From: Gammaproteobacteria bacterium
GTDB lineage: Bacteria > Pseudomonadota > Gammaproteobacteria > Eutrophobiales > Eutrophobiaceae
Length of the DNA stretch: 64,000 nt
Reading direction: 5' to 3'
NCBI GenBank assembly: GCA_947480335.1
Contig: CANKCB010000001.1
Span: 62,001-126,000, forward strand
The notes beneath the pieces were generated by a model that had not been told where the DNA came from, did not search any database, and saw only the letters and a program-made list of their open reading frames with translations. A program made the position numbers and the translations under genes. Of the stretch, positions 17,605 through 39,400 are shown piece after piece. How positions within the stretch are numbered: the first letter of the stretch is position 1; each line of letters opens with the position of its first letter.

Positions 17605-17658
17605 ACTTCTAGTTTAACGCAAAAATCGCGCCAGATTTGGCAAGACTGTAAATTTTGT

Positions 17659-18396
17659 CTACATTCGAAATTGATTGCCGAGATAAATGTCTCGGACATG
17701 TTCATTGGCGAGTATTTGTTCGGGTGACCCTTCTGCAATAATACGACCATCATTCACTATATAGGCACGATCACACGATCCCAGAGTTTCCCTGACATTG
17801 TGATCTGTTATCAAAATGCCAAGGCCGCGCTGGCTCAGGTAGCGAATGATTTTCTGGATATCCGCTATGGATATTGGATCAATGCCGGCAAACGGCTCGT
17901 CCAGAAGTAGAAATTTAGGGTTGACAGCCAAGGCGCGGGCTATCTCGACACGTCTACGCTCACCGCCAGACAGACTCATGCCCAGGCTGTTGCGTATATG
18001 TGCAATGTGAAACTCCTGTAATAACTCTTCCATCAGGGTCTTGGCTTCGTCTCTGGAGATGTCAGATCGGGTTTCCAGTATGGCCATGATATTGTCTTCA
18101 ACAGACAGCTTGCGGAATATGGACGATTCCTGGGGTAAATATCCGAGACCCAGACGTGCACGTTTATCCATTGGTAAGTGGCTGATATCCTGATCGTTCA
18201 GGAAGATCTTGCCATTATCACAGGGTATCAGGCCAACTACCATATGAAAGCTAGTAGTCTTGCCGGCGCCATTGGGACCAAGCAAGCCGACGATCTCGCC
18301 CTGGCTAACGGTAATGCTGACATCACGCACGACCTCGCGCCGTCGGTATTTTTTTGACAGGTGCTGTGCGGAAAGCATTCCGGTATCTTCTGACAT
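17659..18396 (-). CDS. lptB: LPS export ABC transporter ATP-binding protein LptB
   Basis: A 245-residue ABC ATPase: Walker [14 protein letters not shown], signature [15 protein letters not shown], Walker [15 protein letters not shown]-loop [10 protein letters not shown]. It forms the LptB2FG complex that drives LPS from the inner membrane across the periplasmic LptA bridge. Its permease partners are the LptF/G family; the only such genes visible in this window are the pair inside the sphingolipid-like operon around 27-29 kb. Confidence 0.96.
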
Positions 18397-18428
18397 GTGT
18401 TTGCGAATAAAGCCTGTTCGTTAAGGTT

Positions 18429-18983
18429 TCAGTTTGTCGGATCCGTTGTGGTTTTTTTCCCGGGGATGATTAATTTGACGCGTGTATCTTCATTGGTCGG
18501 TTTGCCAGCATCACTAGTGGAGCTATTGGCGCGAACCTGGCTCAGTGTCGTGTCATATTCAACATGGTCGGCAATCAAACGTCTGTCACCCTGCTTTACC
18601 TTGGCATTTTGTTTAAGCACGATCAGGTTATTGAGTTCGTAATATTCCATTACCACCGCCTCGGCCTCATCATAGATAGTGCTGTTGTCAGGCATTTGTC
18701 TGAATGTTGATGGCTGACCCTCCATGATGATTTTTTCCAGCTTGTTGTCATCGGTGTAATAAATGGTCAACTTGTTGCCAGTGATGCGCATGCTGCCCTG
18801 AACCACCACCACATTCCCGGTGTAAATACTGATATTTTTTGTGTCATCAAGCTGGGCCGAATCCGATTCGATCTCCAGATCCTGATCCTTGTCTGTCGAC
18901 AACCCAAAGGATGGTGTTGAGCAGAGAAGCGCCAGCAATAACAGGCTAGATCTTGTCAGCTGGTTTAATAGTCGTTCGTTCAT
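18429..18983 (-). CDS. lptA: LPS transport periplasmic protein LptA
   Basis: A 184-residue periplasmic protein with signal sequence (SSLLLLALLCSTPSFG) and an OstA-like beta-jellyroll: IESDSAQLDDTKNISIYTGNVVVVQGSMRITGNKL is the characteristic start. It forms the filament between LptC and LptD. Its 5' end overlaps the end of lptC by 38 bases, implying tight coupling. Confidence 0.93.
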   Translation of the reverse strand: MNERLLNQLTRSSLLLLALLCSTPSFGLSTDKDQDLEIESDSAQLDDTKNISIYTGNVVVVQGSMRITGNKLTIYYTDDNKLEKIIMEGQPSTFRQMPDNSTIYDEAEAVVMEYYELNNLIVLKQNAKVKQGDRRLIADHVEYDTTLSQVRANSSTSDAGKPTNEDTRVKLIIPGKKTTTDPTN

Positions 18984-19515
18984 GATTCAGTATTTCCAGT
19001 CGATTCTCATCAAAATGTGCCCGGACGCCTTTTCCTGTCACTGTTGCCCGATTGGCAACGATGGTGGCATTCTGGTCTGTCTCCGCATATTCTTCAAGCA
19101 GCAGTACCTTGACCTCGGTGGTGTCTACGTTCAGTCTGACCTTGCCAGCCCCGTTTTCTATCCACATCCGCACCTTGCCGCGTAACAATATTACTTCATT
19201 ATTGTTGGTCACCCAGCCCTTGTCCGCTGTTATATGCAGCGGGTCGGAATCCGGCCGGTAAAGTTCAAGCACGGGCTCGTACAATTCGAGTGTGTCATCG
19301 ACCGGATTATGTTCCATGTAGACAGCATACAGCTTGCTGGCCGGCAATCCCTTCTCATCCATGGTGATGGTCGTGAAATCATCCATGTAATAGTCAGGAT
19401 CAAGATTTTCGGATGGAGCAGTGGCGGTTCCTGTCTCGACGATCCTGTTCATAAGCCAGCCGCTGCCGATGGCGGCGGCGGCCAGAATCGAAAACAGGAT
19501 GATGCGTTTTGACAT
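18946..19515 (-). CDS. lptC: LPS export system protein LptC
   Basis: A 189-residue bitopic protein with one N-terminal membrane helix (IILFSILAAAAIGSGWLMN) and a periplasmic jellyroll (MDDFTTITMDEKGLPASKLYAVYMEH, HITADKGWVTNNNEVILLRGKV). It docks on LptB2FG and passes LPS to LptA. It lies between kdsC and lptA. Confidence 0.92.
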   Translation of the reverse strand: MSKRIILFSILAAAAIGSGWLMNRIVETGTATAPSENLDPDYYMDDFTTITMDEKGLPASKLYAVYMEHNPVDDTLELYEPVLELYRPDSDPLHITADKGWVTNNNEVILLRGKVRMWIENGAGKVRLNVDTTEVKVLLLEEYAETDQNATIVANRATVTGKGVRAHFDENRLEILNHERTTIKPADKI

Positions 19516-24319: not shown

Positions 24320-25090
24320 TCAGGTGCCAATACGATATTCCCATGCCTTCTGGTTTTTGATGGCGTCCTGAATAAAGGGTGACATTCGTATGAGCCGTAT
24401 GACGAACCGATTAAGCCATGAGCCTGGGAACCGCATCGGCCGGATAATGTCCAGAAACAACACGACACGGGTGCCGTCTGTATTATTTTCTACCCGATGC
24501 TTGTAGGTATCATCAAACACCAGACATACACCCTCCTGCCAGTTCGCCTTTTGATCCCCCACTTCTATCCAGCAGCGATCGGTTGGCTCAGGAACTTTCA
24601 GCGCGAGGTGACATCGTAATATACCTTTATAAGGACCTCGATGAGGAGGAATATGTTTACCGGGCGCGAGTACTGAAAAGAAACCTGTCAGCATTCCCGG
24701 TATCGATTCAATAATGCGCGTTGTTTCCGGACAAAGGTCGCAATTACTCTGCATTTTGAACCCATAGCCGTACAGGAAAAAAGTTTTCCAGCGGTCATCC
24801 TGGGTAATATTAATCTGGTCTCTGGAGATATCCTGGAAATTTGGTAGCTGATCCTGCTTTTCCAGAATCCGATCCAGTTCCTGACGAATTATTTTCCAGT
24901 TCGTCTCCAGTGGGGCCGTCCAGGCGAAATCATGGGCATCGAAGATGGGAATGTCACTAACAGCCGAATATCTTATAAGTATCCTTTCTATGTGTTGTAA
25001 CACCCATTTGCCAATAGCGACGCTGGGACGATGCCGTCGTCTTTTTTTTGTGGCCGCAGGGTTCTGTGCCGAGTCTTTGTGTTCGTTCAT
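24320..25090 (-). CDS. Aspartyl/asparaginyl beta-hydroxylase (AspH/LpxO) family dioxygenase
   Basis: A 256-residue Fe(II)/2-oxoglutarate dioxygenase. The two Fe-binding histidines expected for AspH-type enzymes are His161 (RCHLALKVP) and His198 (FDDTYKHRVEN). Arg208 (GTRVVLFLD) is the likely 2-oxoglutarate ligand, and PPHRGPYKG precedes the core. The family includes LpxO, which 2-hydroxylates lipid A acyl chains. It is the last gene of the six-gene bCerS-lptF-lptG-kinase-NTase-AspH operon, so a lipid acyl-chain substrate such as a ceramide is my inference, not shown by sequence. Confidence 0.82.
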   Translation of the reverse strand: MNEHKDSAQNPAATKKRRRHRPSVAIGKWVLQHIERILIRYSAVSDIPIFDAHDFAWTAPLETNWKIIRQELDRILEKQDQLPNFQDISRDQINITQDDRWKTFFLYGYGFKMQSNCDLCPETTRIIESIPGMLTGFFSVLAPGKHIPPHRGPYKGILRCHLALKVPEPTDRCWIEVGDQKANWQEGVCLVFDDTYKHRVENNTDGTRVVLFLDIIRPMRFPGSWLNRFVIRLIRMSPFIQDAIKNQKAWEYRIGT

Positions 25091-25129
25091 GGTCAGGTCT
25101 CAATACATAGTGTCAGATCTTGTTTGCGA

Positions 25130-26110
25130 TCAATGTAAGCCATCCCGCTTAATCAGTTGCCATAATACACTAAAGCCAAACAGGACAGGATGACGTTGAA
25201 GTTCGGGTGTCACCTTGATGGCTATGCCGGTATGTCGTTCAATTTTCCAGGCGGCATAGCTTACACAGTCGCGGAAAGTGTACGCTGCCTTGGTCAGACG
25301 TATTATGGACAAAATCAAACCTTGCCAACGTCTGAGGCGCCACAGCCATAAAACATGTCGGTGTGAGTTGCCGTCTGTAAGATGTCGTAACTCCCCGGAT
25401 GCAGACAGTTGTAGTAGAGAAGGTAATGCGGGTGCCGCCAGATGAGTCAGCGTTGTGAAATCAGTCAGGTTCTGGCTGGTAATTTCCCGGGCCCGGGTAA
25501 GACGTTCCGGCCTGAGCTCGGCCGCGTAAGTCAGTCCCAGTCCGTTAGTCCAGATTAATTGCGTTTTAACAGTTGTTTCAGTAACAGCCGGCAATGTGGT
25601 CCTCAAAAAAGTCAGTAGCGCTTGCGCCAGCATTTCATAAATTGTAGATCTGGAAGTATTATCACGTACATAGACCAGTCTGGATGGCTGGGCAAACCTC
25701 GACCAAATGTATGAATGGAACCAGCTCGAACAACCTCGTCGAAAATCCGCGACGGAAATGACCGCATATTTTGCGCGTACCGTTGTGCCCTCCCTGTCAG
25801 TTTCCAGATAGAAAACATTCGGGGGTAATAATCTATTAATCAAGCGGGAAGTTTTATTCGCGTAAGCATCGGCATAATTGTCTACAATCACATATAAATC
25901 GATTACGCCTTCATCATATTGGTTCATGCGTAAACAGGAACCATACAGAATGATTGCTACCAAGGAATCACCAAAGCGAGTCTTAAGTTGTTCGGCAAGC
26001 AATCCTGCTTCCGGTACAGTATCCAGCTCACTTAGCCGGGCGATTTCCCTTATCAGGAGCGGAGGTGGAATGATTACTGGCGTGAGCATAGGATTCTGCA
26101 AACCGGTCAT
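25130..26110 (-). CDS. Tam41-like nucleotidyltransferase-fold protein
   Basis: A 326-residue protein I cannot assign by strong identity. Residues 51-77 show a polymerase-beta-type nucleotidyltransferase start: ILYGSC (Tyr56-Gly57-Ser58) and then, after a short spacer, IDLYVIV with Asp71. The following LPPNVFYLE, KYAVISVADFRR and W-x-x-x-YIWSRFAQPSRLVY strongly resemble the order of motifs in Tam41, the mitochondrial CTP:phosphatidate cytidylyltransferase (FNP, KYGVIS, LYVAGRLQKPV). The start codon overlaps the stop of the lipid kinase by one base. A CTP-dependent activation of a phospholipid or ceramide phosphate is the inferred role. Confidence 0.62.
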   Translation of the reverse strand: MTGLQNPMLTPVIIPPPLLIREIARLSELDTVPEAGLLAEQLKTRFGDSLVAIILYGSCLRMNQYDEGVIDLYVIVDNYADAYANKTSRLINRLLPPNVFYLETDREGTTVRAKYAVISVADFRRGCSSWFHSYIWSRFAQPSRLVYVRDNTSRSTIYEMLAQALLTFLRTTLPAVTETTVKTQLIWTNGLGLTYAAELRPERLTRAREITSQNLTDFTTLTHLAAPALPSLLQLSASGELRHLTDGNSHRHVLWLWRLRRWQGLILSIIRLTKAAYTFRDCVSYAAWKIERHTGIAIKVTPELQRHPVLFGFSVLWQLIKRDGLH

Positions 26111-27102
26111 TACGGCGCGTGAGCTACCAGAAATTTAATCGGGCGTGTGGCAGAGATACGCAGCGGACCGTTTTGGCTATCGCAGTGGAAAAACTCGCCA
26201 TCTACGATATAGTCCTCATCCATTAATAATTCCAGTGTAGTGTTGTTTCTGCTGTAGTAACCGTTTTCGACAGTTAATAATCCACCTTTGCGGCAAAGTA
26301 TTTTCGGCAGCGCACGCCAGAAATGTACCGCCTTGTCCCGTAATATCGTGGTATGTATCTGACCCTGGCCAGCACCCCAGTACGGCCGCATCCCGAGTAA
26401 TAATCGGTCCAGCGTGCTGGCAAACATCAACAAGCTGCGTTGTTCCCATACCAGACGATTGTCATCTTGCAGCCTGATGTGTGATGCCTGGAATTCTTCC
26501 GAGTTTCGACCAGACAACAATCCCGTTAGCAGATGTAGCATGACGAGTGCTGAAGCAGACTCTCCAAGCAGCCCTGATTTTTTAATATGCTTATGGAAAA
26601 ATCTGGCGCCACGGGCAATGATACCCGCACCAAAAAACATGCCATATACATCCGTTTGATTGTCCTGCTGAATGTGCAGTACCGGGCGGGTAATCAGATT
26701 GACCCCTGAAGCACTCTGTAAACTGGAGACCAGTCGTTGCAGGTTTTTTTCAGCGCGGCCGCACGAGCCGATATCCGTTGCTGTCATATTTGTCGTTCCG
26801 CCCGGAACAATACTGAGTAGCGGGAAGCTGCGCCATTCTGGCCCAGAGAGTAGTCTGTTAAGCACAGCCTGTACGGTACCATCACCACCAATAACAACCA
26901 GATGATCCCGCTCTTGTAGTTTTACTTCAGAGACGATTTGGTCCAGGTCGGTCAATGAACTGGCTTCATGGATAATAACGCCAGGGATGCCGGTGCACAG
27001 CTGTCTGATTTTGTCCACACGACGACGCACTTGCCCGCTATAGGGATTGAGTATTACCGCCGTCTTATGCGGGTACAGGTTGTCAGTAGCCGTAATTAAC
27101 AT
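26110..27102 (-). CDS. DAG-kinase catalytic domain lipid kinase, ceramide kinase candidate
   Basis: A 330-residue DAGK_cat protein of the YegS/sphingosine kinase fold. The N-terminal ILNPYSGQ, the nucleotide loop VVIGGDGTVQAV (Gly72-Thr76) and PGGTTNMTATDI (100-110) are intact. This superfamily phosphorylates diacylglycerol, phosphatidylglycerol, sphingosine or ceramide, and Caulobacter has a bacterial ceramide kinase of this type in its sphingolipid cluster. The context with ceramide-type genes favours ceramide as substrate; diacylglycerol is the alternative. It lies 18 bases after lptG. Confidence 0.8.
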   Translation of the reverse strand: MLITATDNLYPHKTAVILNPYSGQVRRRVDKIRQLCTGIPGVIIHEASSLTDLDQIVSEVKLQERDHLVVIGGDGTVQAVLNRLLSGPEWRSFPLLSIVPGGTTNMTATDIGSCGRAEKNLQRLVSSLQSASGVNLITRPVLHIQQDNQTDVYGMFFGAGIIARGARFFHKHIKKSGLLGESASALVMLHLLTGLLSGRNSEEFQASHIRLQDDNRLVWEQRSLLMFASTLDRLLLGMRPYWGAGQGQIHTTILRDKAVHFWRALPKILCRKGGLLTVENGYYSRNNTTLELLMDEDYIVDGEFFHCDSQNGPLRISATRPIKFLVAHAP

Positions 27103-27120
27103 GTGTAGAGTGTTATTGAA

Positions 27121-28191
27121 TCAGGGTACGCGATGTAGCCAGACACGGGCGAACCAGATAAGCAATATGCCCGGAACCAGCGCAATGAATGAAGAATCCA
27201 GTTTCAACAGAAGTCCGGCATTAGAAAAAATCTGGTCCAGTATATAAACCATTATTCCGGTAACGCCGGCCAGTACCAGTCTGGTAGAAAATCCGGTGCG
27301 CACAGATCCAAATACAAAGGGGACCGAAATTAACAACATACCCAGCATCATGATTGGCCCACCCAGTTTCTTCCATAAGGATAACAAATAGATGTCCGAT
27401 TCCTGCCCGGTTGCTTTTAGGTGTTGTACGTAACGAAATAACTCGAGAGGTGACAGGCTTTCCTGGGGTTTAGTAAGCGTCGATATCTGCGCATCACTCA
27501 GAAAGGAATTCCAAGGCAAGATTTCGAGTGTAGACGACGTGACAGTTTCATCGTTGAAGGTTTTATGCACGACATTATGCAAGATCCATTCATTATTATT
27601 AACAATCTCGAACCCTTCGGCGCGTATGTAATCGGAAAGATTACCATTGTTGTCCAGGCTCAGAATTTCCACATTGGCTTGATTGGTTTCGTGTGTCATA
27701 TTGCCAATGCGCAGTATTTGTTTGTCATCACGGGTCCATATGCCAAGATTGTTACCCAGCTCTGCACTTTGTTCCATTGCAGCCGATCGATGTGAAATCG
27801 CATCCTGTTGCAGTGATGGTGCGACAAATACTTCCAGCATCCCGATAATCAGCATAAGAATCAGACCAACTTTCATCGACGCCGCGCTGATTTGTACGGG
27901 CGAATATCCGGCTGAACGTAAGGAAATCAGTTCATGATTCATGGCTAGTCGACCCAGTGCCGTGACATTCCCCAGCAGAGCAATAAACGGTGAGATTTGT
28001 ATAAATCGTCTGGGAGTGGTCATCAGTACGTAGAGAAATGCATCGCTGGTTTTATAGAAACCGGTGCCGACATCATCCAGTTGGTCTACCAGATCCAGAA
28101 AACTGAATAAGGGAATTAATACCAGGGTAGAGATGAGTATCCCTCCTGCTATCTGTTTCATCAGATACCGATCAAGTATGTACATTTGCAC
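27121..28191 (-). CDS. lptG: LptG-like LPS export permease, YjgQ family
   Basis: A 356-residue permease: three membrane helices, a periplasmic jellyroll of about 150 residues, three more helices. Family motifs are LDRYLMKQIAGG at the start, ALLGNVTALGRLAMNHELISLRSAGYS for the LptB coupling region, and PFVFGSVRTGFSTRLVLAGVTG near the end. It overlaps lptF by 20 bases. In canonical systems LptF/G carry LPS with LptB. Here the pair sits inside a putative sphingolipid operon and not in a pepA context, so it may be a dedicated paralogue; the symbol refers to the family. Confidence 0.85.
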   Translation of the reverse strand: MQMYILDRYLMKQIAGGILISTLVLIPLFSFLDLVDQLDDVGTGFYKTSDAFLYVLMTTPRRFIQISPFIALLGNVTALGRLAMNHELISLRSAGYSPVQISAASMKVGLILMLIIGMLEVFVAPSLQQDAISHRSAAMEQSAELGNNLGIWTRDDKQILRIGNMTHETNQANVEILSLDNNGNLSDYIRAEGFEIVNNNEWILHNVVHKTFNDETVTSSTLEILPWNSFLSDAQISTLTKPQESLSPLELFRYVQHLKATGQESDIYLLSLWKKLGGPIMMLGMLLISVPFVFGSVRTGFSTRLVLAGVTGIMVYILDQIFSNAGLLLKLDSSFIALVPGILLIWFARVWLHRVP

Positions 28192-29254
28192 CGACCGGTT
28201 TTTTTCTGAAACTGGGAGTCAATATCCACGTTACCAGAATCAACATCAGGATATGCAGCCACCAGACACCGGGAACACGACCTACTATCCCTTGTTCCAC
28301 CCAGGTCTGAGCAAGACCACTCAGGTTGTAATAGATTGCAAACATTACGGCCGCAGCAATTATTTTTTCACCCTTGCCCTGGCGGGGAGCGGCGCGACTC
28401 AATGGGATCGCAACCAGCGCCAGCAGAATGGTTGCCACGGCACGTGAGACGCGCCATTGAAACTCTGCAATATCACGCGAGTCCGTTGACTTGCCCAGTT
28501 GCAGAGTGGATGCGGCCTTACGTTGGTAATCCATCGCTTTTTTGATATCGGGCATGAATACAAAACGGGAAAAATGGACGATGGATTCACGGGCATTCGG
28601 ACGGCCGATCCGGTACATTGATCCATCAATTAAATGCAGCTGGGGCGGCTGAAAGTCGCCGGAACGAACCTGATATCCCTGATGTGCAAGAATGATATCG
28701 CTCTGCTCATTTTTTCTGATGTAGTGGAAAACCCCCTCGAGTGTTTTGTCTTTATTACGCTTGTTCCTGATATAGACGATTCTGCCACTGGATTCGTTGC
28801 CATAGAATCGTCCGGCCTGATACCGATCCACATCAAGCTCGGTGCTGGCGCTATTGTCAATGCGGTAAATTGTGTCGTATGCCCAGGGTCGTCCATATAT
28901 TGATAGCAAACCGACAAGTAGTCCAACAGGTATAGCCAGCGTCAGCACTATCTTGACAATACGTGTCTCGTTGATTCCGGCAGACTGCAGTACAATAATT
29001 TCCTGGTCCCTGTGCATGCGTCCAAGTGCCACAATAATGGCGGCATAAAAAGCGATAGGCAGCAGTACTTCCATGGCGATGATTGTTTTAAGCAGGATCA
29101 GTTCCAGAATGAGTACCAGCCCCAGAGTCTGGGAAACGGCATCTTCCAGATAACGCGCTGCATTAAAACTAGAAAATAATCCAGCCAGTAACAGGCTTAT
29201 TACCAGCAGAGGGTGCAGTATTTCGCTGTGAATATATTGATCCAGTTTTTTCAA
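28172..29254 (-). CDS. lptF: LptF-like LPS export permease, YjgP family
   Basis: A 360-residue permease with the same layout as LptG: N-terminal helices, coupling region ALGRMHRDQEIIVLQSAGI, periplasmic jellyroll (about residues 125-265) and C-terminal helices containing IPLSRAAPRQGKGEK, the family's conserved loop. The PRQGK loop and QEIIVLQSAG match LptF better than LptG. It follows the GNAT-like ceramide synthase gene by 94 bases and overlaps lptG. The LPS versus sphingolipid question is as for lptG. Confidence 0.85.
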   Translation of the reverse strand: MKKLDQYIHSEILHPLLVISLLLAGLFSSFNAARYLEDAVSQTLGLVLILELILLKTIIAMEVLLPIAFYAAIIVALGRMHRDQEIIVLQSAGINETRIVKIVLTLAIPVGLLVGLLSIYGRPWAYDTIYRIDNSASTELDVDRYQAGRFYGNESSGRIVYIRNKRNKDKTLEGVFHYIRKNEQSDIILAHQGYQVRSGDFQPPQLHLIDGSMYRIGRPNARESIVHFSRFVFMPDIKKAMDYQRKAASTLQLGKSTDSRDIAEFQWRVSRAVATILLALVAIPLSRAAPRQGKGEKIIAAAVMFAIYYNLSGLAQTWVEQGIVGRVPGVWWLHILMLILVTWILTPSFRKKPVGANVHT

Positions 29255-29348
29255 AAACTTACGACCTGTGATCCAAGTGATGGGTATGTGTCTTGCAGAT
29301 AGCGCGCATCAATAACGTTTAATGAGAATTCCCACCAAAGCGCGATGC

Positions 29349-30509
29349 TCATAGATTTTTTTCATAAATACGATAACGCTTGTACTCTTTACTACCGATA
29401 TTGTCGAGAATGCTACGCATGCCCTTGTTGTTCTCAAGTATCCAGGACATTTCAACAGCTTTAATACCGGACTCCCTGGCGGCATCACAGGCAGCATTGC
29501 ACACCATTAACGCCAGGGTCAGACCCAGTGTACTATTCTGGTACTGTTTGCGTACACCCATCAGGGGTACTCGCCCTGTACGTATACTTTTTTGGGTAAC
29601 CCCCTGATACAAACGTAACCAGCCCAGCGGAAACAACTTTCCGTTCAGTTGTGACAGCACTTCATTCAGATTCGGCAGTGCTACAACAAACGCTACAGGT
29701 ATACCGTCCAGCTCTGCAATCTGGACGAAGTCATCAGAAATAAACAGTCGCAGACTGGTGCCTAGCTCTGCAAACTCTTCCTTGCTAAACGGTATGAATC
29801 CCCAATTGTCTGACCATGCGTCATTGAAAATATTCCTCAATATTTCCATTTCCTCGCCAAAGTGTTTACGGCGCAATGGTCGTAACTGTATACGTTTGTC
29901 AAATTTTGCAACCAGTGTCTTCATTATTCGTGACGGTACAAAATCGGTTTCAATCCAGTAGGCCAGTAAATCCATTGCCGGCGAGTAACCCTGCTGTTCA
30001 AGTAAGGTACCGTACCAGGGTTTTGAATGTGGCATGAGTATGACCGGCGGCGTATCAAACCCATCGACCAGAACCCCGCACTCCTGATTGATTGAAAAAC
30101 TGAATGGTCCGGAGATATGGGTTGTGCCTCTGTCAGATAACCAGGTTTCACCAGCGCTTGTTAGCGCTGCGATAACGACAGGGTCATTGATAAACTCAAG
30201 TAAGCCAAAATGACCCGCATGACCGCCATGGAACTGACGATGGATCTGATCAATCTGTGCACAGATTCTGCCTACCGGTATTCCGTTGCGATATGCCAAC
30301 CAGGCCTGCCATGTGGCATTTTTGAAGTAGGGGTTTAGCCTGGAGAAATGCAGACGACGCTCCAGTTTAAGTGGTGGTACCCAATGTGGGTCGTTTGCGT
30401 AAATGGTCCAGGGTAGGTTGATAAATGCCAACATGTCTGCACGGGAATGCACCGGTCTGACTTCTACAGGATGACTGGACGCAAATGAGTCTTTTTCGGC
30501 ATTATTCAT
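29349..30509 (-). CDS. GNAT-superfamily acyltransferase, bacterial ceramide synthase candidate
   Basis: A 386-residue protein starting at the ATG ending at 30509. Its motifs DPHWVPPLKLERR, GRICAQID, GPFSFSINQECGVLVDGFDTPPVILMPH and LLEQQGYSPAMDLLAY are those of a GNAT-like family often mislabelled dATP pyrophosphohydrolase. To my knowledge the Caulobacter member was shown to be the bacterial ceramide synthase (bCerS), which N-acylates the 3-oxo-sphinganine-type base. The C-terminal half is a second GNAT-like fold. It heads the leftward lipid operon and is divergent from the ACP/serine palmitoyltransferase operon. Enzyme identity is inferred from family memory and context. Confidence 0.72.
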   Translation of the reverse strand: MNNAEKDSFASSHPVEVRPVHSRADMLAFINLPWTIYANDPHWVPPLKLERRLHFSRLNPYFKNATWQAWLAYRNGIPVGRICAQIDQIHRQFHGGHAGHFGLLEFINDPVVIAALTSAGETWLSDRGTTHISGPFSFSINQECGVLVDGFDTPPVILMPHSKPWYGTLLEQQGYSPAMDLLAYWIETDFVPSRIMKTLVAKFDKRIQLRPLRRKHFGEEMEILRNIFNDAWSDNWGFIPFSKEEFAELGTSLRLFISDDFVQIAELDGIPVAFVVALPNLNEVLSQLNGKLFPLGWLRLYQGVTQKSIRTGRVPLMGVRKQYQNSTLGLTLALMVCNAACDAARESGIKAVEMSWILENNKGMRSILDNIGSKEYKRYRIYEKNL

Positions 30510-30887
30510 GCTGTTGTCCTGGAACTGGAAAAATGCGGGCAAGGATAGCATAAATATAAAAAAGGGCCTTTTAAAACCACTTTGTAATTTGCTGGATCAG
30601 GCTGAATTTTCGCAGGATTTCGGGGTCAAACAAAGAAGAGACAAGGATGCCTGGCAAGTTAATGAGTCAGCTTCAAACAAATCAGCAGTAAAATTAAGCT
30701 AAATAATGCTGGCATCAGGCATGCAGAATACTTTAAACTCCGCGTTTTTAGTAAATTTGGCTCAAATCCCGGGGTATAAACCGGGGCTGATAACGGGCAA
30801 TTTCCAGAGAATTAATACTGGTATACCGTACACAAATCTTTTATATTATCAGCGGGATAGAACACATTTGCATGAGAGGTATTAACT
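30510..30887. promoter_or_regulatory. Divergent intergenic region between the two sphingolipid-type operons
   Basis: About 380 AT-rich bases between the two divergent operons hold no supportable gene. They must contain the promoters for both directions. A weak TATATT (30842-30847) could be a -10 box for the rightward operon, but I see no convincing -35 partner. An imperfect small hairpin (CCCGG, 8-base loop, CCGGG) lies near 30769-30786. A ten-codon ATG reading frame (30872-30904) ends 4 bases before the TTG of the ligase gene and could couple its translation. Confidence 0.4.
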
Positions 30888-30908
30888 CTGATCTCCGAAA
30901 TTAGTAAT

Positions 30909-32717
30909 TTGGATACGCCAACTGTCCGGCCTGAAAACGGTTCGTTTTCAGGCGAGCCTTCGCTCGTCCTGCAACCGACGAACACGCTGAATACATTGAC
31001 TCAGCGTCTGGCAGATTTTGAGACGCTGACAGATGCGCTGGACTATGCCGCATCCGGCACTACCGGTTATAACTTCTATGACGCACGTGGAGCACTCAAA
31101 CATGTGCTGACGTATTCTGATTTAAGACAGAGTGCGCTTACCACAGCAAGACGTTTGCTTGGTCTTGGGCTGACACGTGGTGAACACGTTGCCATAATTG
31201 CTGATACTACCCCTGAATTTATTATCCTGTTCTTTGCTTGCCGTTATGCGGGATTGGTTCCGTTTGCCATGCCTATTCCAGTCAATCTGGGTAGTCACGA
31301 TATCTATGTACGTCAGTTACGTGGCATGCTCAGCATCAGCAATGCCAGTATGGCAATTGCTAACAAGGATTTTATTTCTTTTCTGGAAGAAGCTACACGT
31401 GATCTTGAGTGTGTGCGCTGGACTGGTACGCCAGGACAACTTGCACAGTTGCCTGAATCGGAACAGGAGCTACAGAAAAACCAGCCGGATGCAGTAGCTT
31501 ATCTGCAGTTCACTTCCGGCAGTACTCGTGCTCCACAGGGTGTTATCATCACTGAAAAAGCTGTGATGAGTAACCTGCAGGGCATCGTCAGACATGGTCT
31601 GGAAATATATCCGAATGATCGTTGTGCCTCCTGGCTGCCCTTTTACCATGATATGGGATTAATCGGTCTGGTATTGTCACCGCTGGTCTCACAGCTGTCT
31701 GTCGACTTTCTGCGTACCCGTGATTTTGCTGTACGCCCTATCCAATGGCTGAGAATCATTAGTCGTAACCATTGCACAATCGCATTTTGTCCACCATTTG
31801 GTCTCGAACTATGTGCCCTTAGGGTGCGTAGTGCTGATCTGGAAGATTTGGATTTGAGCAGCTGGCGAGCTGCAGGTATTGGCGCTGAAATGATACGGCC
31901 GGATACACTGAAGAACTTCGCCAGTAAGTTTGCGGCAGTTGGATTTAATCCTGCTGCGTTCCTGCCTTGTTATGGACTGGCTGAAGCCTCGCTTGCGGTT
32001 ACTTTTTCCAAAGTGGGGACTGGTCTTGATATTATGAAAGTCGATACCGAGACACTTGCTGACCGTAGTGTTGCAGTCCGTGTTCAGGCTGATGGTAGAA
32101 AACACACTGAATTCGTAAATTGTGGCAAACCGTTGCCTGGCCACTTTGTCTCAGTAGTTGATGATAATGGAAAGCCATTACCGGACATGCGTGTAGGCAG
32201 AGTATTGTTGAAAGGACCCAGCATAATGTCCGGTTATATCAACGACCCGGAAACTACACAGCGTGTAATGCGGTCTGACAGCTGGATGGATAGTGGTGAT
32301 CTTGGTTATGTCTCCGAGGGCAATCTGTACCTGACTGGCAGACATAAGGACATTATTATAATCAACGGTCGCAATATCCGTGCGCAGGACATAGAAGAAA
32401 TTGCAGAACAACAACCAGAAGTCAGAACACGTGAAACGTCAGCATTTGCAGTTGTCGATTCGAATGGCGTTTCCACCGTTGTGTTGGTGATTGAGTGCCG
32501 ACTGTCATCTGTGCAGGAACGACAATCGCTTATGAGTCGCTTGCAGAGACTGGTATACGCCGCATTTGGTGTGCACTGTCTGGTTGAACTGGTCCCTCCC
32601 CATACCTTACCTCGGACCTCTTCAGGAAAACTATCGCGTGCCGCGGCGTGTAAGGGTTTCATGCAAAGGACCGGATTTTCAAGTTTGCAATCTGCCAAGC
32701 CGGAAGTTCGTCACTGA
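30909..32717 (+). CDS. Fatty acyl-AMP ligase / acyl-ACP synthetase (AcsR-like)
   Basis: A 602-residue adenylate-forming enzyme of the FAAL type. Motifs: LQFTSGSTRAPQGVIITEKAV (phosphate loop), SWLPFYHDMGLIG, LPCYGLAEASLAVTFS, MDSGDLGYV, HKDIIIINGRNIRAQDIE and LPRTSSGKLSRAA with the C-terminal Lys. It should activate a fatty acid and load the ACP two genes downstream for the serine palmitoyltransferase. The start is uncertain: TTG at 30909 has no Shine-Dalgarno, while a CTG at 30888 follows GAGAGG by 8 bases, and no in-frame ATG exists upstream of the conserved region. Confidence 0.85.
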   Translation: MDTPTVRPENGSFSGEPSLVLQPTNTLNTLTQRLADFETLTDALDYAASGTTGYNFYDARGALKHVLTYSDLRQSALTTARRLLGLGLTRGEHVAIIADTTPEFIILFFACRYAGLVPFAMPIPVNLGSHDIYVRQLRGMLSISNASMAIANKDFISFLEEATRDLECVRWTGTPGQLAQLPESEQELQKNQPDAVAYLQFTSGSTRAPQGVIITEKAVMSNLQGIVRHGLEIYPNDRCASWLPFYHDMGLIGLVLSPLVSQLSVDFLRTRDFAVRPIQWLRIISRNHCTIAFCPPFGLELCALRVRSADLEDLDLSSWRAAGIGAEMIRPDTLKNFASKFAAVGFNPAAFLPCYGLAEASLAVTFSKVGTGLDIMKVDTETLADRSVAVRVQADGRKHTEFVNCGKPLPGHFVSVVDDNGKPLPDMRVGRVLLKGPSIMSGYINDPETTQRVMRSDSWMDSGDLGYVSEGNLYLTGRHKDIIIINGRNIRAQDIEEIAEQQPEVRTRETSAFAVVDSNGVSTVVLVIECRLSSVQERQSLMSRLQRLVYAAFGVHCLVELVPPHTLPRTSSGKLSRAAACKGFMQRTGFSSLQSAKPEVRH

Positions 32718-32720
32718 CGC

Positions 32721-33644
32721 ATGTCAGAAACTGTGGCGGTAACCGGCGCCACCGGTTTTATCGGCCGGAATCTGATTGAAAAGCTGGTTAAGGATGGCCG
32801 GCAAGTCCGCGCACTTACTCGTCACTCTCGCTCTGATACAGAAAATGTCCGTTGGATTACCGGCACACTTGACGATACCGATGCGTTAAATCGACTGGTA
32901 TCAGGCGCTGGCGCTGTTATACATTGCGCTGGCCGAGTTAGAGGCCGCTCTTTACAGGATTTTCTGGATACGAATCTGGGTGGAACAGCAAACATAGAAC
33001 GTGCCGCGCTGTTACAGGATCCCCTGCCACGGTTTCTACTGATCTCCTCTCTCGCTGCGCGTGAACCCGACTTGTCCTGGTATGCCGAAAGCAAGCGTCA
33101 GGCAGAACAGTCAATGATTGCTAACGCTGGCAGTATGCGCTGGACAATCTACAGACCTACAGCTGTATACGGTCCGGGCGATAAGGAACTTGCGCCCTTG
33201 TTAAAAGCCACCCGCCTCGGAATATTACCGGTAACAGGATCCCGGTCTTCCAGGTTTGGTTTAATCTATGTGACAGATCTGGTTGCAGCCATCACGGCCT
33301 GGCTTGATTCGGAAAAGGTTATTCAGGGTGTGTATGAGCTTGATGATGGAACGCCCGGGGGATATGATCACGAACGGGTGAAAGTAATTGCAAGCCAGGT
33401 CTGGAAGCATCCAGTTTACAGTCTGCCTGTGCCAGTCGCCATGATACAACTGATCGCAACAATCAATCTTTGTCTGGCCAGGTTACTCGATTATTCACCT
33501 ATGTTGACGCCGGGAAAAGTCAGGGAATTACGACATCCAGACTGGGTATGTGACATCAGCCGGTTGACAGCAATACTTGGGTGGAAACCAAGCCAGCGCT
33601 TACAGGACACCCTGAAGCAGACAGTAATATTAAAAAAGCAGTAA
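32721..33644 (+). CDS. NAD(P)-dependent epimerase/reductase, ceramide reductase (CerR) candidate
   Basis: A 307-residue extended short-chain dehydrogenase. The dinucleotide loop is VTGATGFIGRNL (Gly9, Gly12, Gly15) and the catalytic pair is Tyr121-x3-Lys125 in SWYAESKRQAE, with Ser nearby in LLISSLA. In Caulobacter an epimerase-like protein in the same position (CerR) reduces the 3-keto group of the sphingoid intermediate. It follows the ligase by 3 bases. The epimerase alternative cannot be excluded by motifs alone. Confidence 0.78.
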   Translation: MSETVAVTGATGFIGRNLIEKLVKDGRQVRALTRHSRSDTENVRWITGTLDDTDALNRLVSGAGAVIHCAGRVRGRSLQDFLDTNLGGTANIERAALLQDPLPRFLLISSLAAREPDLSWYAESKRQAEQSMIANAGSMRWTIYRPTAVYGPGDKELAPLLKATRLGILPVTGSRSSRFGLIYVTDLVAAITAWLDSEKVIQGVYELDDGTPGGYDHERVKVIASQVWKHPVYSLPVPVAMIQLIATINLCLARLLDYSPMLTPGKVRELRHPDWVCDISRLTAILGWKPSQRLQDTLKQTVILKKQ

Positions 33645-33668
33645 TCTGACAGGAACGGAAGCTACCAT

Positions 33669-33920
33669 ATGACTGATAACTACGAAAACACACTGCAGAG
33701 GATTTGCAAACATCTGGAGCGAATTGCAGATCCAGGCGCGATCATACGGGCAGACACAAATCTGGTGGATGAATTTGCGCTGGATTCAGTCAAAATACTC
33801 GACCTGATTATGGAAATAGAAGACGAATTTGATATATCCATTCCACTAAATCTGATGGCAGATGTTCAGCTCGTAAGCGATCTCGCCAGAATGATAGAAC
33901 GTATAGAGTCAGAAAAATAA
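33669..33920 (+). CDS. Acyl carrier protein
   Basis: An 83-residue four-helix ACP. The phosphopantetheine attachment site is Ser40 in FALDSVKILDLIMEIEDEFDIS, the standard DS(V/L) motif at the start of helix II. It differs from the housekeeping AcpP by sequence and by location, and its stop overlaps the start of the serine palmitoyltransferase-like gene. It is therefore likely a dedicated carrier that presents the acyl chain to that enzyme. Confidence 0.88.
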   Translation: MTDNYENTLQRICKHLERIADPGAIIRADTNLVDEFALDSVKILDLIMEIEDEFDISIPLNLMADVQLVSDLARMIERIESEK

Positions 33921-35116
33921 TGAATCTGTTCGACAAGTTCACAACATTTATCGCGGACAAGGAACCATTACTCGCGATTAAACCTGAAATATTCGGCACA
34001 CCGATAGAAAAAATGTATTCACCGACAGAGGCCAGTATCGGTGGTAGGCGTATCCTGCTCGCAGGTACCAATAATTATCTGGGACTGACCTTTGCTCCCG
34101 AGTGCCTGGCCGCTGCTCATCAGGCAATAGATGAGGAAGGAACCGGTACAACAGGATCACGCATGGCGAATGGCAATTATACCGGTCATCGTGAACTGGA
34201 ACGCGAGTTTGCCGAGTTTTATGGATGCAAGCATGCTGTGGTATTTTCCACGGGCTATCAGGCCAACCTTGGCACTATCTCCGGACTGGCCGGTGCAGCA
34301 GATGTGTTATTGATAGACGCACACTGTCATGCAAGTATTTATGATGGCTGTCGTCTTAGTGGCGCAGAGATTATTCGTTTCCGTCACAACGATACGACAG
34401 ATCTTGAAAAACGATTACGACGTCTCGGCGACAGGACAGGATCGACCCTGGTAATTGTAGAAGGTATTTACAGTATGTTAGGTGATCAGGCGCCACTGTC
34501 AGCCATGGTTGAAGTAAAAAAATCATATGGTGCGTATATGCTGATCGATGAAGCGCATTCACTGGGTGTGCTGGGTAAAACCGGACAAGGTTTGGTTGAG
34601 GCGGCTGGCGTGACGAACAATGTCGATTTTATTACTGGCACATTCAGTAAGAGTCTGGGTAGTATCGGTGGATACTGTGTGAGTAATCACAGGGAGCTCG
34701 ATATCATGCGCTACTTGAGTCGACCCTATATATTTACTGCCTCTCCCTCACCTTCAAATATCGCTTCGGCTCGAGCAGCATTGCGACTGCTGAAGGATGG
34801 AGAGCATTTACGTAAACGTTTATGGGAAAACGCCAACCGTTTATATTCTTGTATGCAGGAACAGGGTTATCGTCTTGGTCCACAGGTAGGCCCTGTGATA
34901 TCTGCACAGCTTGAAACTACCGAACAGGCGCTGGCTTTATGGACTGCGCTGATTGAACGTGGCATCTATGTAAACCTGATTTTCCCTCCCGCTGCCCCTC
35001 ACGACAAACCGCTGGTTCGTTGCAGCCTGAGCGCTGCACATACTCCCGAGCAGATTGAGTATCTTTGCAGCACATTTACTGATCTGGCAAGTCTGGCTCG
35101 TCCACTCAGCCAGTAG
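33920..35116 (+). CDS. spt: Serine palmitoyltransferase-like alpha-oxoamine synthase
   Basis: A 398-residue fold-type I PLP enzyme of the BioF/Kbl/Spt family. The PLP lysine is Lys244 in GTFSKSLGSIGGY; Asp210 and His213 (LIDEAHSLGVLG) bind the cofactor ring. The N-terminal GTTGSRMANGNYTGHRELE resembles Spt (G-x-R-x-x-N-G) more than BioF or Kbl. It condenses an acyl thioester with an amino acid, most likely serine. The dedicated ACP and ligase genes upstream and the GNAT-like acyltransferase across the divergent promoter support Spt over a biotin enzyme. Glycine- or alanine-using relatives remain possible. Confidence 0.82.
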   Translation: MNLFDKFTTFIADKEPLLAIKPEIFGTPIEKMYSPTEASIGGRRILLAGTNNYLGLTFAPECLAAAHQAIDEEGTGTTGSRMANGNYTGHRELEREFAEFYGCKHAVVFSTGYQANLGTISGLAGAADVLLIDAHCHASIYDGCRLSGAEIIRFRHNDTTDLEKRLRRLGDRTGSTLVIVEGIYSMLGDQAPLSAMVEVKKSYGAYMLIDEAHSLGVLGKTGQGLVEAAGVTNNVDFITGTFSKSLGSIGGYCVSNHRELDIMRYLSRPYIFTASPSPSNIASARAALRLLKDGEHLRKRLWENANRLYSCMQEQGYRLGPQVGPVISAQLETTEQALALWTALIERGIYVNLIFPPAAPHDKPLVRCSLSAAHTPEQIEYLCSTFTDLASLARPLSQ

Positions 35117-35376: not shown

Positions 35377-36453
35377 ATGTTGAAAATTACAGGAATTACC
35401 CTGGTCTGTCTGATTTTACTGGGAGCTTGTGCAGAGAAAACTGATAACAGACAGGCGGCAGGTGAAAAAACAGTTACAGTATTGGTTGAAGCTGTTCGAT
35501 TCAGTAATGAACAGACCCGGATTGAAGCCGTAGGTACTTCGCGCGCAATGCAATCAGTAACCTTGAACCCTGTGACTTCAGGTGAAGTTGTCGCTGTGAA
35601 TTTTGAACCAGGACAAAAAATAGAATCAGGCGCAATACTGGCGCAGCTGGATGAGCGAAATGAACAGCTCGCACTGGAGCTGGCACGTATTCGTGTTGAA
35701 GATGCCAAAAAACTTTACGATCGATATCAGAAGACTGCCGGTTCGGGCGCGATACTGCCTACAGTTCTGGATGCAGCAAAAACAGCCTATCAAACTGCCG
35801 AAGTAGAATATAAGCAGGCACGAATCGCGCTGGATGACAGGATAATTCGCGCACCATTTACCGGGTATGTCGGTATCGCTGAAATTCATCCGGGTGACCG
35901 TGTTGATCCGGGCACAATCATTACCACGATAGATAATCGTGATGGCCTGCTGATCAGCTTTGAGGTGCCTGAAATCATGGTGGGTACACTCAGCGTCGGA
36001 GACCGTGTCGCAATCAGTCCCTGGAATAGCCAGGATACCGCTGCACAAGGTGATGTGGTGGATATCGGCAGCCGTATCGATCCATTGACACGGACATTTA
36101 CAACTCGCGCCGAAGTTGATAATAAATCCGATATGCTCAGACCGGGCATGAGTTTCCGCGTCAGTCTCGACATAAAAGGCAAGAACTACCCGGTGTTGCC
36201 GGAAATTGCGGTGCAATGGGGCGCGGATGGTTCCTATATCTGGGTAGTAAGTTCCGGACAGGCCCATCGTGTTTCTGCCAGCATCATTCAGCGACAGCAG
36301 GGCAAGGTTTTGGTCAATGCTGCCCTCGTTGAAGGCGATCTGGTGGTGGTTGAAGGTGTGCAGCGTATGTATGAAGGCGTCAAGGTAAAACATACCCGGC
36401 GAGAGGACAGTCAGGAACAAAAGATGGACAGGACTGTAAAAATTGAGAGTTAG
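35377..36453 (+). CDS. RND efflux periplasmic adaptor (membrane fusion lipoprotein)
   Basis: A 358-residue HlyD/AcrA-like protein. The N-terminus ends in the lipobox LLGAC with Cys18, so it is probably a lipoprotein tethered in the inner membrane. Next come the barrel-sandwich half EVVAVNFEPGQKIESGAILAQLDER, a helical hairpin (about residues 95-150), the second half APFTGYVGIAEIHPGDRV and a beta-barrel. It starts 260 bases after the serine palmitoyltransferase-like gene and is followed 2 bases later by its RND pump. Confidence 0.92.
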   Translation: MLKITGITLVCLILLGACAEKTDNRQAAGEKTVTVLVEAVRFSNEQTRIEAVGTSRAMQSVTLNPVTSGEVVAVNFEPGQKIESGAILAQLDERNEQLALELARIRVEDAKKLYDRYQKTAGSGAILPTVLDAAKTAYQTAEVEYKQARIALDDRIIRAPFTGYVGIAEIHPGDRVDPGTIITTIDNRDGLLISFEVPEIMVGTLSVGDRVAISPWNSQDTAAQGDVVDIGSRIDPLTRTFTTRAEVDNKSDMLRPGMSFRVSLDIKGKNYPVLPEIAVQWGADGSYIWVVSSGQAHRVSASIIQRQQGKVLVNAALVEGDLVVVEGVQRMYEGVKVKHTRREDSQEQKMDRTVKIES

Positions 36454-36455
36454 TC

Positions 36456-39400
36456 ATGTCTGTTGATATCAATGATTTGCCCGGACTGAGTATCCGCAGG
36501 CCGGTACTGATTCTGGTAGCCAATCTGCTAATTGCGCTGGCCGGGATAGCTGCAATCATGTCTGTTGAAATTCGTGAACTTCCCGATGTTGATTTTCCTG
36601 TTGTGAGTGTATTTGTGAATTATCCGGGAGCTTCGCCTGAAACCATAGATACTGAAGTAACCAGTATTGTCGAAGGAGCTGTAGCACGGGTGTCCGGGGT
36701 CAAGAATATTACCTCCTCCTCTGAAGAAAACAGTTCACGTATTCGTATTGAATTTCAACCTGGCGTCGATCTGGATTATGCCGCTTCCGATGTGCGTGAA
36801 GCTGTCAGTCGGGTCGAAAGACGTCTGCCCGACAGGGTTGAGGATGTGTCAATTATCAAGGCAGACTCTGACTCGCAGCCGATTATGAATCTGTCTGTGT
36901 ACAGTGAAACCCTGCTGGAAGAGGATATAACCCGCATCCTTGAAAAGGACATCATACCCGAACTTATATCAATTGATGGCGTTGCGGACATCTCCCTGTT
37001 TGGAGATCGTAAACGTGTATTAAGAGTGGTGGTGGATCCGCTGCGCCTGACCAGTCTGGGCTTGTCCGTGTCAGATGTGGCCGACACGCTCCGGCGTGCG
37101 CCGTTTGATGTACCGGCAGGAAGTTTTCGTTCCGAAAATCAGGAGTTGTCAGTACGGGCAGACGCCTCGGTGACTACCACTGATCAGGTAGCCAATATCA
37201 TTATTCGTGATAACACGCGAATAGGAGATGTGGCCAGGGTTTATTTCGGTCCGGAAGATGCTGCACGCTATACCAGAATGAACGGACGTAGTGTGATTGC
37301 AATGGGTGTGATTAGGAAAGCCCGATCCAATACCATCGACATTTCTAACAAGGTGCATGAGGCAATTGGTAAAATTAACGAGCGCTTCGACAATCTTGAG
37401 GTGAGCATAACCAATGATGATGCGGGCTTCATCCGCAGCTCGGTGCACGAAGTGTTGATCTCTCTGCTGGCAACAATACTGATCGTAATCGCCACGATAT
37501 GGCTGTTTATGGGTTCGCTACGGGCGACACTGATACCGAGTATTGCTATACCAATTTCACTGATAGGCACAGTAGCCGGAATCTGGCTATTTGGATTTTC
37601 CATCAATATCCTGACACTGTTTGCGCTGGTGCTGGCGACAGGTCTGGTGGTGGATGATGCTATCGTGGTACTGGAAAATATCCTGCGACGGCGCAAACAA
37701 CATGTAGGTGGCCGGGCAGCAGCCGTACTTGGTACGCGGCAGGTTTTTTTTGCAGTAGTAACCACTACCGCCGTTCTGGTTTCGGTCTTTGTGCCCATAG
37801 CCTTTTTGCCGGGAACCGCTGGTCGTTTGTTCCGTGAGTTTGGTTTTGTACTGGCCTTGTCCGTTGTCATCTCCAGCTTTGTTTCCTTGTCGCTGGTTCC
37901 GGCAATGGCATCACGCTTGCCACAACAGGATCGACAGGGCACAGGTTTAAGAAACAGAATGGGAGCCTGGTTAACTGGATTCTATACGCGTAGTCTGGGC
38001 GCCACCCTGAATCATCCCTTGCTGGCCTTGCTGGTTGCCACCTGTATGGGTGCCGCTGCCTTTTCTGTTTATACCACACTGGATCAGGAATTATTGCCAA
38101 CGGAAGATCGGGGAATGTTCAGGGTAAATATGTCTGCTCCCGATGGTGTGGGTGTGGGTTATATGGACCAGCAAACGCGCAAGGTTGAACAGATACTCGC
38201 TCCTCTGGTTGATGGTGGAGAGGTGCAATCATTGTTTACTGTCGTCGGCTTTGGCGACCCTAATCGCAGTTCAATTGTGGTGCCTTTGGTTGACTGGAGC
38301 TTGCGTAAGCGCAGCCAACAGGAAATCATGCGATCCTTGAACAAGATGGTGTCGGACATTCCCGGTATCCAGGTCTCTGTTTCCGGTTCAAATAGTTTGG
38401 GCATGGGCAGGGGTGGGGGAAACCGGTTAACTGTCGCACTGATTGGTAATGAATATGCACATATTTATGATGTGGCAAAAATATTTACCCGGGTAATCGA
38501 ACAAAAATCTAAAAATCTTTCCGGTCCGGAAATATCCTATGAACCAACGCAGCCACAGCTGCGTCTGCAAATTGATCGCCGCCGTGCAGCCGATCTCGGT
38601 ATAAATCTGGATAATCTTGCTGACACGTTAAGAGTGATGATCGATGGCGATGACATAATTGATTTGAATGTGCAGGATGAGGCCGTGCCAATACGGCTGG
38701 AAGCATCATCTGAAGAAATAAATGATCCTACCGATCTGGTCAATCTGTATGTAGACACGGAGTCCGGACGCCTGTTGCCACTTTCCAGTGTGGTTACCCT
38801 GAAGGAAGAAGGAATTGCATCAGAGTTGCCGCGTGAGGCACAGCGCAGGGCGATAGAAGTAGATCTGGATGTCACGCCGGGTTACCCCTTGCAATCTGCT
38901 GTGAACGAACTCAGGGCCTATGCCGCAGAAGCACTGCCAGAAGATGTTTCCATGATTCTGCTTGGTGATGCTTCCACGCTGGAACAAACATCCAGAGAGG
39001 TTGCAATGATTTACATAATCGCCTTACTGGTAGTGTTTCTGGTCTTATGTGCCCAGTTTGAAGGGTTTACCAGTGCTATTGTCATCATGTTGCTGGTGCC
39101 ATTTGGTATTGCTGCAGCAATATTTGCATTGTTCTTAACAGGTACGTCCTTGAATATTTATTCGCAAATCGGTCTGGTCATGTTGATTGGTTTGATGGCT
39201 AAAAATGGTGTACTGGTGGTTGAGTTTGCCGACCAATTGCGTGACAAAGGTTATGATGTTCGCAATGCTATCGAAAAAGGTGCGGTTATCCGCTTGCGAC
39301 CGGTGTCCATGACTTTAATGTGTACTGTACTTGGTGGATTGCCATTGATACTGGGTTCGGGTGCTGGAGCAGAAGCCCGTTCGGCCATAGGTTGGGTAGT

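Follow-up and report, generated by a model that had tools for sequence, protein, structure and literature searches.

A predicted phosphosphingolipid gene island with a trimmed head-group module and a second LptF/LptG pair in a gammaproteobacterial genus

Ceramides are sphingolipids, fats typical of animal cells. Among bacteria, the closest described systems are the phosphosphingolipid clusters of the Caulobacter type. Caulobacter genetics has shown that CpgB and CpgC are needed for the lipid CPG and are sufficient for it among these genes, and that CPG2 needs CpgA, CpgD (CC_1152) and CC_1153 as well (PMC11324152, PMC12275187). The same organism has second copies of LptC, LptF and LptG, its CC_1161 (CpgC) was noted to contain a domain resembling CDP-diacylglycerol (CDP-DAG) synthase, and its N-acyl chain is hydroxylated by an unlinked DesA-type enzyme, CC_0202 (PMC11324152). 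The exit of bacterial sphingolipids from the inner membrane has been stated to be unknown (PMC11324152, PMC11087976); the CpgC route from ceramide-1-phosphate to CPG is open and its mechanism has been called unidentified (PMC12275187); and the order of acylation by bCerS and reduction by CerR is disputed in the literature. Here, an island of ten genes is described from a 64,000-nucleotide stretch (the window) of contig CANKCB010000001.1 of an uncultured gammaproteobacterium; all coordinates are positions in this stretch. The comparison with Caulobacter was made using its published description together with an alphaproteobacterial locus (L030), family models and relatives.

The island is probably a chromosomal, vertically kept phosphosphingolipid locus, the product of which would be a ceramide with a single phospho-head group that is exported by LptF2G2. 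Its ten open reading frames, each intact, form two divergent and tightly packed operons (Table 1), as a sequence-only reading of the window had proposed; every frame was found, with neighbours overlapping or separated by less than 100 bp. The rightward operon reads aasR, cerR, acpR, spt; its genes lie 3 and 24 bp apart or, in one case, overlap by 1 bp. The leftward operon reads, from the divergent centre outwards, bCerS, lptF2, lptG2, a lipid kinase gene, a Tam41-like nucleotidyltransferase gene and a dioxygenase gene; neighbours here either overlap, by 1 or 20 bp, or are spaced by 39, 18 and 94 bp. The same reading took the rightward order to be a mirror of that in Caulobacter; this was wrong, because aasR-cerR-acpR-spt is the order of CC_1165–CC_1162 (PMC11324152). 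Pfam and NCBIfam models assign eight of the ten proteins, the exceptions being those of 326 (25130–26110) and 400 (29349–30551) residues.

All five ceramide genes, for the ligase, the reductase, the acyl carrier protein (ACP), Spt and bCerS, are present and are conserved together in relatives, with bCerS in an operon separate from that of spt, as is described for such clusters (PMC11324152). The earlier claim that every step to a ceramide is encoded is thus supported, as is, at the level of sequence, the ceramide reading of the island. Spt exceeds the cut-off of NF047599 (Table 1) and falls below those of BioF (331 bits, cut-off 426) and Kbl (311 bits, cut-off 460). Its closest solved structures are the Sphingomonas-type serine palmitoyltransferases 2x8u and 2jg2, with which it aligns over its full length and shares the GTFSKS lysine motif and the PPAxP...RCS loop. 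In a tree built by a quick method, a single branch with a support of 100 divided 26 Spt sequences from 17 BioF/Kbl-like paralogues from genomes of the same family; separation from BioF and Kbl, the condition set beforehand for the Spt assignment, was therefore found both in the tree and in the model scores. The equivalog cut-off and the tree support its identification as a proteobacterial serine palmitoyltransferase, the catalysis of which is predicted.

The remaining proteins of the ceramide set are consistent with this. Homologues of AasR, 45–86% identical, lie beside spt in synteny; aasR is listed with a TTG start and its true start is uncertain. The CerR translation holds the motifs TGATGFIG and YAESK, and in complete relatives cerR invariably lies between aasR and acpR/spt. 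AcpR has an ALDSVK site, is syntenic in relatives and scores below the generic ACP cut-offs. An AlphaFold model of the 400-residue bCerS, calculated from 25 homologues (pLDDT 84), matches the two-domain GNAT enzymes 5kf1 and 7q3a across its whole length (Foldseek, E = 1.7e-15), and its homologues, 39–76% identical, adjoin spt clusters. The label of a GNAT-like bCerS given from the letters is borne out by this tandem fold and by its travelling with spt, and both agree with a putative ceramide synthase of the Caulobacter type. As a separate observation, a gene for an MsbA-like ABC exporter (ABC_membrane plus ABC_tran) was seen inside the cluster or immediately next to spt in ten related loci (L021:11196–12914, L073:2–1606, L074:17429–19117, L082:779–2524, L091:5217–6935, L160, L161, L166, L171 and L172); it is a candidate ceramide flippase and is missing from the genus of the window.

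The lipid kinase matches DAGK_cat (6.7e-17), with YegS models reaching just 25–30 bits; its translation contains a GGDG motif and no CxxxCxxC. Bacterial ceramide kinases are described as DAGK-type proteins of sphingolipid producers that have GGDG and lack the eukaryotic CxxxCxxC (PMC10331486). The kinase shows these sequence hallmarks of the bacterial ceramide kinase CpgB, and phosphorylation of ceramide is predicted for it. In relatives its gene adjoins that of the 326-residue Tam41-like protein, which has no Pfam or NCBIfam match. Tam41 converts phosphatidate and CTP (cytidine triphosphate) to CDP-diacylglycerol. A profile of the island protein finds Tam41 (6ig2) at 2.6e-05, the common stretch being KYAVIS..DF....W...Y...RF.QPV, and its AlphaFold model (pLDDT 85.5) matches 6ig4 in Foldseek at 2.4e-08. 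The model gave VIA Z values of 18.4 (7ecd), 16.6 and 16.2 for Tam41 entries and 7.6 for the next fold, so that profile and fold both uphold the Tam41-like name that the sequence-only reading had used. With this gene next to that of a DAGK-family kinase, formation of CDP-ceramide from ceramide-1-phosphate is the natural prediction.

The genus of the window differs from its relatives in what follows these two enzymes. Islands of sister genera also carry cpgD-like and cofC-like nucleotidyltransferase genes, a CpgA-like CDP-alcohol phosphotransferase gene (D..DG..AR motif) and a metallophosphoesterase gene. In genome-wide searches, none of the five genomes of this genus gave an orthologue of CpgA or CpgD; nearly all other spt-positive genomes did. 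The pair cpgA plus cpgD, taken as the mark of a CPG2 producer, is lacking from the genome of the window and its four sister genomes alike, and the island is therefore not classed with those of CPG2 producers. A close CofC-like gene is likewise found in none of the five, with remote ones elsewhere in those genomes. A Tam41-like gene without cofC, cpgD and cpgA occurs at only five of 46 bCerS loci from the family and the class, all five belonging to this genus, and all five genomes retain the kinase, the Tam41-like enzyme and LptF2G2. The simplest reading of this gene loss is that the genus is predicted to stop at one phospho-head group.

Several candidates for the missing functions were rejected. 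The NTP-transferase gene at 21140–21934 is not CpgD but MurU (274 bits, cut-off 250), and matches to the CpgD query in the genus were at the MurU level only. The remote CofC-like genes (contigs C9 and C2) were not accepted as a substitute module, neither being near sphingolipid genes; one lies between genes for MmgE/PrpD and ribose-5-phosphate isomerase. A third CDP-alcohol phosphotransferase (369 residues, contig C12, five of five genomes) was set aside as a head-group transferase for its pterin/riboflavin-like, glycosyltransferase and methyltransferase neighbourhood. It belongs to an operon conserved in the genus (L176:1096–7981 on contig C12 of the same genome, and L177–L180) that includes genes for LPG_synthase_TM, GTP cyclohydrolase II, RibD-C reductase, zinc dehydrogenase, a 6-pyruvoyl-tetrahydropterin-synthase-like protein, a glycosyltransferase and a methyltransferase. 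Another locus, almost confined to the genus (L094:8324–12694 on contig C2 of the same genome, L096, L097, L098 and L100), encodes a fusion of a CofC-like nucleotidyltransferase with a HAD phosphatase, after which come a conserved gene of about 385 codons without a Pfam match and, in some cases, a MOP flippase gene; it is possibly a locus for a glycerol-phosphate polymer or a lipid head group. The 385-residue protein resembles, to our eye, CDP-glycerol glycerophosphotransferase, and a search of the PDB with it gave nothing significant.

The genome (2.42 Mb, 27 contigs) encodes an LptF/LptG pair in the island and a further one on another contig. Across the 53 genomes of the family, 20 of the 21 spt-positive genomes have 3–5 matches to LptF/LptG, and each of the 32 without spt has exactly two (Fisher p of about 1e-13, a value that ignores kinship and is surely inflated by it). 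The contrast is repeated within a single genus, where G033 differs in this way from six sister genomes; the one exception is G006, an assembly of 280 contigs in which the aasR-cerR-acpR-spt operon alone is present, on a short contig. A tree calculated from 82 sequences sets island LptF and island LptG each apart from housekeeping LptF and LptG, and the island clades take in copies from other gammaproteobacteria and from a record labelled deltaproteobacterial; separate clades spanning these lineages indicate that the extra pair is old and not a local duplication. The structure of the Lpt complex defines LptG and LptF positions that contact the lipid A phosphate (PMC6744409). At the position of Escherichia coli LptG Lys34, each of the 17 housekeeping copies from the family has Ser or Thr, and 19 of the 24 island copies have Asp or Glu (Asp in the LptG2 of the window); at that of LptF Lys30, 16 of the 17 housekeeping copies and none of the 24 island copies have a basic residue; and at that of LptF Arg33, Arg is found in 18 of 24 island and one of 17 housekeeping copies. 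The K40 and K41 positions are acidic in both sets, so that the family as a whole is unlike E. coli and these comparisons call for caution. Taken together, the co-occurrence with spt and the separate clades support the assignment of LptF2/LptG2 as a putative dedicated sphingolipid exporter. The island has no second lptB and the genome only one LptC, so LptF2G2 would depend on the common LptB, LptC and LptA, the operon for which lies 5 kb to the left. The surrounding housekeeping block, rpoN-lptB-lptA-lptC-kdsC-kdsD (16135–21083), is 3–8 kb from the island, which places genes for the export of lipopolysaccharide (LPS) and of sphingolipid close together.

The dioxygenase is of the Asp_Arg_Hydrox family, its best NCBIfam models being OlsC (275 bits, cut-off 450) and LpxO (146 bits, cut-off 500); as it falls below both equivalog cut-offs, it is described here only as working like these enzymes. 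In most relatives the dioxygenase gene comes after the Tam41-like one. Elsewhere in the class, bCerS is instead adjoined by a nonhomologous fatty-acid hydroxylase gene (PF04116), and of 24 bCerS loci having either gene only L030 has both. The recurrence of hydroxylases of different kinds at such loci suggests that ceramide hydroxylation is important, and the product of the island is probably 2-hydroxylated.

In the family, 21 of the 53 genomes have Spt, 20 have the Tam41-like protein and 19 have bCerS, these being almost entirely the same genomes, and the kinase co-occurs with them; bCerS occurs in 18 of the 21 spt-positive genomes, and one weak match (25%) is in a genome without Spt. Among 369 genomes sampled evenly across the class, 24 have bCerS. 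Sphingolipid genes are thus uncommon but widely spread in the class. The claim of rarity is the weaker part of the earlier reading, and the case is not the first, gammaproteobacterial clusters with lptF2/lptG2 having been published already (PMC11324152). Named relatives in the GTDB records are environmental metagenome-assembled genomes. Two records titled Klebsiella pneumoniae (L017, CAMDWI010000003.1; L018, CAMBTO010000001.1) have Spt 81–82% identical to that of the window and are placed in its genus; they are apparently mislabelled. In genus relatives the gene order is conserved, with 54–92% identity for most island proteins, and the island is bordered by mltF on one side and, farther out, by queC on the other. 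Neither a tRNA nor an integrase gene was found near the island and its G+C content is ordinary; together with the conserved flanks, this indicates inheritance in place within the genus. Repeats across 22–37 kb were short two-copy matches, and scans for consensus promoters, including the 357 bp divergent region, and for terminators gave results at chance level. Genes for an RND efflux adaptor and pump (35377–39554) follow spt on the same strand and also occur in L017 and L018; in L020 an LPG_synthase_TM gene stands in their place, so they are probably outside the pathway.

Table 1. Coordinates of the island genes and of the associated lpt genes in the window, with the main evidence for each.
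Feature	Position	Strand	Evidence
aasR, fatty acyl-AMP/ACP ligase, predicted loader of dedicated ACP	30909..32717	+	NCBIfam PRK09192 839 bits (cut-off 600)
cerR, SDR/epimerase reductase, predicted for 3-keto-sphinganine or oxidised ceramide	32721..33644	+	Pfam Epimerase 7.3e-25
acpR, dedicated acyl carrier protein	33669..33920	+	PP-binding 4.4e-09
spt, serine palmitoyltransferase (predicted)	33920..35116	+	NF047599 609 bits (cut-off 500)
bCerS, predicted N-acyltransferase (bacterial ceramide synthase)	29349..30551	-	no Pfam match; tandem GNAT fold
lptF2, second LptF, proposed half of sphingolipid exporter	28172..29254	-	TIGR04407 314 bits (cut-off 230)
lptG2, second LptG, proposed half of sphingolipid exporter	27121..28191	-	TIGR04408 295 bits (cut-off 240)
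cpgB-like lipid kinase, predicted ceramide kinase	26110..27102	-	DAGK_cat 6.7e-17
cpgC-like Tam41-fold protein, predicted CTP:ceramide-1-phosphate cytidylyltransferase	25130..26110	-	Tam41 by profile and fold
OlsC/LpxO-type Fe(II)/2-oxoglutarate dioxygenase, predicted ceramide acyl 2-hydroxylase	24320..25090	-	Asp_Arg_Hydrox 1.5e-54
Divergent intergenic region, 357 bp, expected promoters for both operons	30552..30908	.	position only
lptC, sole LptC in genome, putative LptF2G2 partner (shared)	18946..19515	-	TIGR04409 125 bits
Housekeeping lptB and lptA, putative shared partners	17659..19003 (lptA 18429–18983, lptB 17659–18396)	-	TIGR04406 397 bits, TIGR03002 122 bits

From the gene content, families, folds, conservation and absence of a second module shown above, we infer the substrates and order of the following pathway. 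AasR would load a fatty acid onto AcpR, and Spt would condense the AcpR-bound acyl group with serine. Attachment of the second acyl chain by bCerS and reduction of the keto group by CerR would give dihydroceramide, which the CpgB-like kinase would convert to ceramide-1-phosphate. The Tam41-fold enzyme would then use CTP to form, most likely, CDP-ceramide for the transfer of one head group (CPG-like in Caulobacter), and the OlsC/LpxO-type dioxygenase would 2-hydroxylate an acyl chain. The finished lipid would be taken to the outer membrane by LptF2 and LptG2, working with the one LptB/LptC/LptA set, whose genes lie close by. As the CpgA, CpgD and CofC-like modules are missing in the genus, no more than one phospho-head group is expected on the product. 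A bolder version of this scheme is put forward tentatively: the kinase and the Tam41-type enzyme may form a minimal head-group module that makes CDP-ceramide, from which housekeeping CDP-alcohol phosphotransferases (of PssA or PgsA size) could produce ceramide phospholipids, with export by an LptB2-F2G2 complex borrowing LptC and LptA from the LPS pathway. If it holds, phospholipid synthesis in the genus would have a CDP-ceramide branch served by a separate exporter.

Several points weigh against the single-head-group scheme. Caulobacter CpgC has been shown only to be needed for CPG, its mechanism being unknown (PMC12275187), and the island of ten genes holds no head-group transferase, which leaves the prediction of the final lipid incomplete. 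The genome is 95% complete in its 27 contigs and absences were checked only through agreement among the five genomes. No LptC2 is present, unlike in Caulobacter (CC_1168), the genome having a single PF06835 match, and the function of LptF2/LptG2 is read from co-occurrence. Lastly, the genome has distantly related CofC-like genes in other places, so that an alternative second module is possible. If the missing functions came from outside the island, for example by the CofC-HAD fusion on C2 and the neighbouring glycerophosphotransferase-like gene, the product could be full CPG2 or could carry another double head group. Such CofC-like genes occur in the genus of the window and in almost no other genome of the family, and the fused one has the conserved 385-residue gene and a MOP flippase gene beside it; but they are about 26–31% identical to island CofC and lie beside polysaccharide-type genes, away from any sphingolipid gene, and CpgA and CpgD have no orthologue in the genus, which makes a double head group unlikely.

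The export step admits another account, in which LptF2/LptG2 is an LPS-export variant that is in the island by chance and sphingolipids reach the outer membrane by other means. Retention of LpxC and of a complete housekeeping Lpt set, as well as the lack of LptC2, would fit it, yet the copy number follows spt in 52 of the 53 genomes, the island proteins form their own clades and the lipid-contact positions Lys34 of LptG and Lys30 of LptF differ between island and housekeeping copies, with K34E in LptG lethal for LPS export (PMC6744409); we regard this account as rather unlikely. That the oxoamine synthase uses alanine, glycine or cysteate, giving a 1-deoxyceramide or a sulfonolipid instead of a true ceramide, is conceivable in that Spt-like enzymes can accept alternatives (PMC11334938) and sulfonolipid synthases belong to the same superfamily (PDB 28eh). 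Its best full-length matches are nevertheless proteobacterial serine palmitoyltransferases (428 bits, against 184 bits for cysteate acyltransferase), it lies above the equivalog cut-off and deoxyceramides do not have the 1-hydroxyl on which a head-group kinase acts, so that a different amino acid is very unlikely. Least probable is a decaying remnant that has lost its head-group genes and makes no lipid: the island is shorter than in sister genera, but its ten frames are intact, order and identity are conserved in genus relatives and the same complete module has been lost in all five genomes.

The phosphosphingolipid reading makes the family a natural experiment on export and on the CpgC step, as the LptF2/LptG2 pair comes and goes with spt across the 53 genomes; this family-wide link is the most useful result. 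One genus has naturally lost cpgA, cpgD and the close cofC, so that its kinase and Tam41-type enzyme stand as a self-contained pair open to assay on their own, and a small operon without CPG2 genes is a handy start for reconstitution.

Compared with known systems, the island resembles CC_1168–CC_1152 of C. crescentus (PMC11324152) in its aasR-cerR-acpR-spt operon, its bCerS in another operon, its CpgB-like kinase, its CpgC-like enzyme and its lptF2 and lptG2. It differs in that the genus lacks cpgA, cpgD, the cofC-like CC_1153, CC_1158 and lptC2, and in that an OlsC/LpxO-type dioxygenase gene lies inside the operon, whereas CC_0202 is unlinked and DesA-type. Azotobacter vinelandii and Pseudomonas luteola (PMC11324152, Fig. 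7), likewise gammaproteobacterial, have a contiguous cluster for ceramide, phosphosphingolipid and transport, but their clusters retain 13 or more of the 17 genes, with CPG and CPG2 as the predicted products, whereas the genes leading from CPG to CPG2 are absent here. With the mitochondrial and Firmicutes CDP-DAG synthase Tam41 (6ig2, 6ig4, 7ecd) the island protein shares the fold (Z of 16–18) and the motifs KY..S..DF....W...Y...RF..P, at 15–18% identity over the fold and with ceramide-1-phosphate instead of phosphatidate as the predicted substrate. The dioxygenase is of the same family as the OlsC and LpxO acyl 2-hydroxylases, OlsC being the nearer model. Pseudomonas fluorescens MYb115 is also a gammaproteobacterium with a sphingolipid, but makes it via a polyketide synthase (PMC12134224), and the island has none. 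Judged by its sequence, the island is one of the known Caulobacter-type phosphosphingolipid clusters and is predicted to work like them; what is new in it is the trimmed head-group module.

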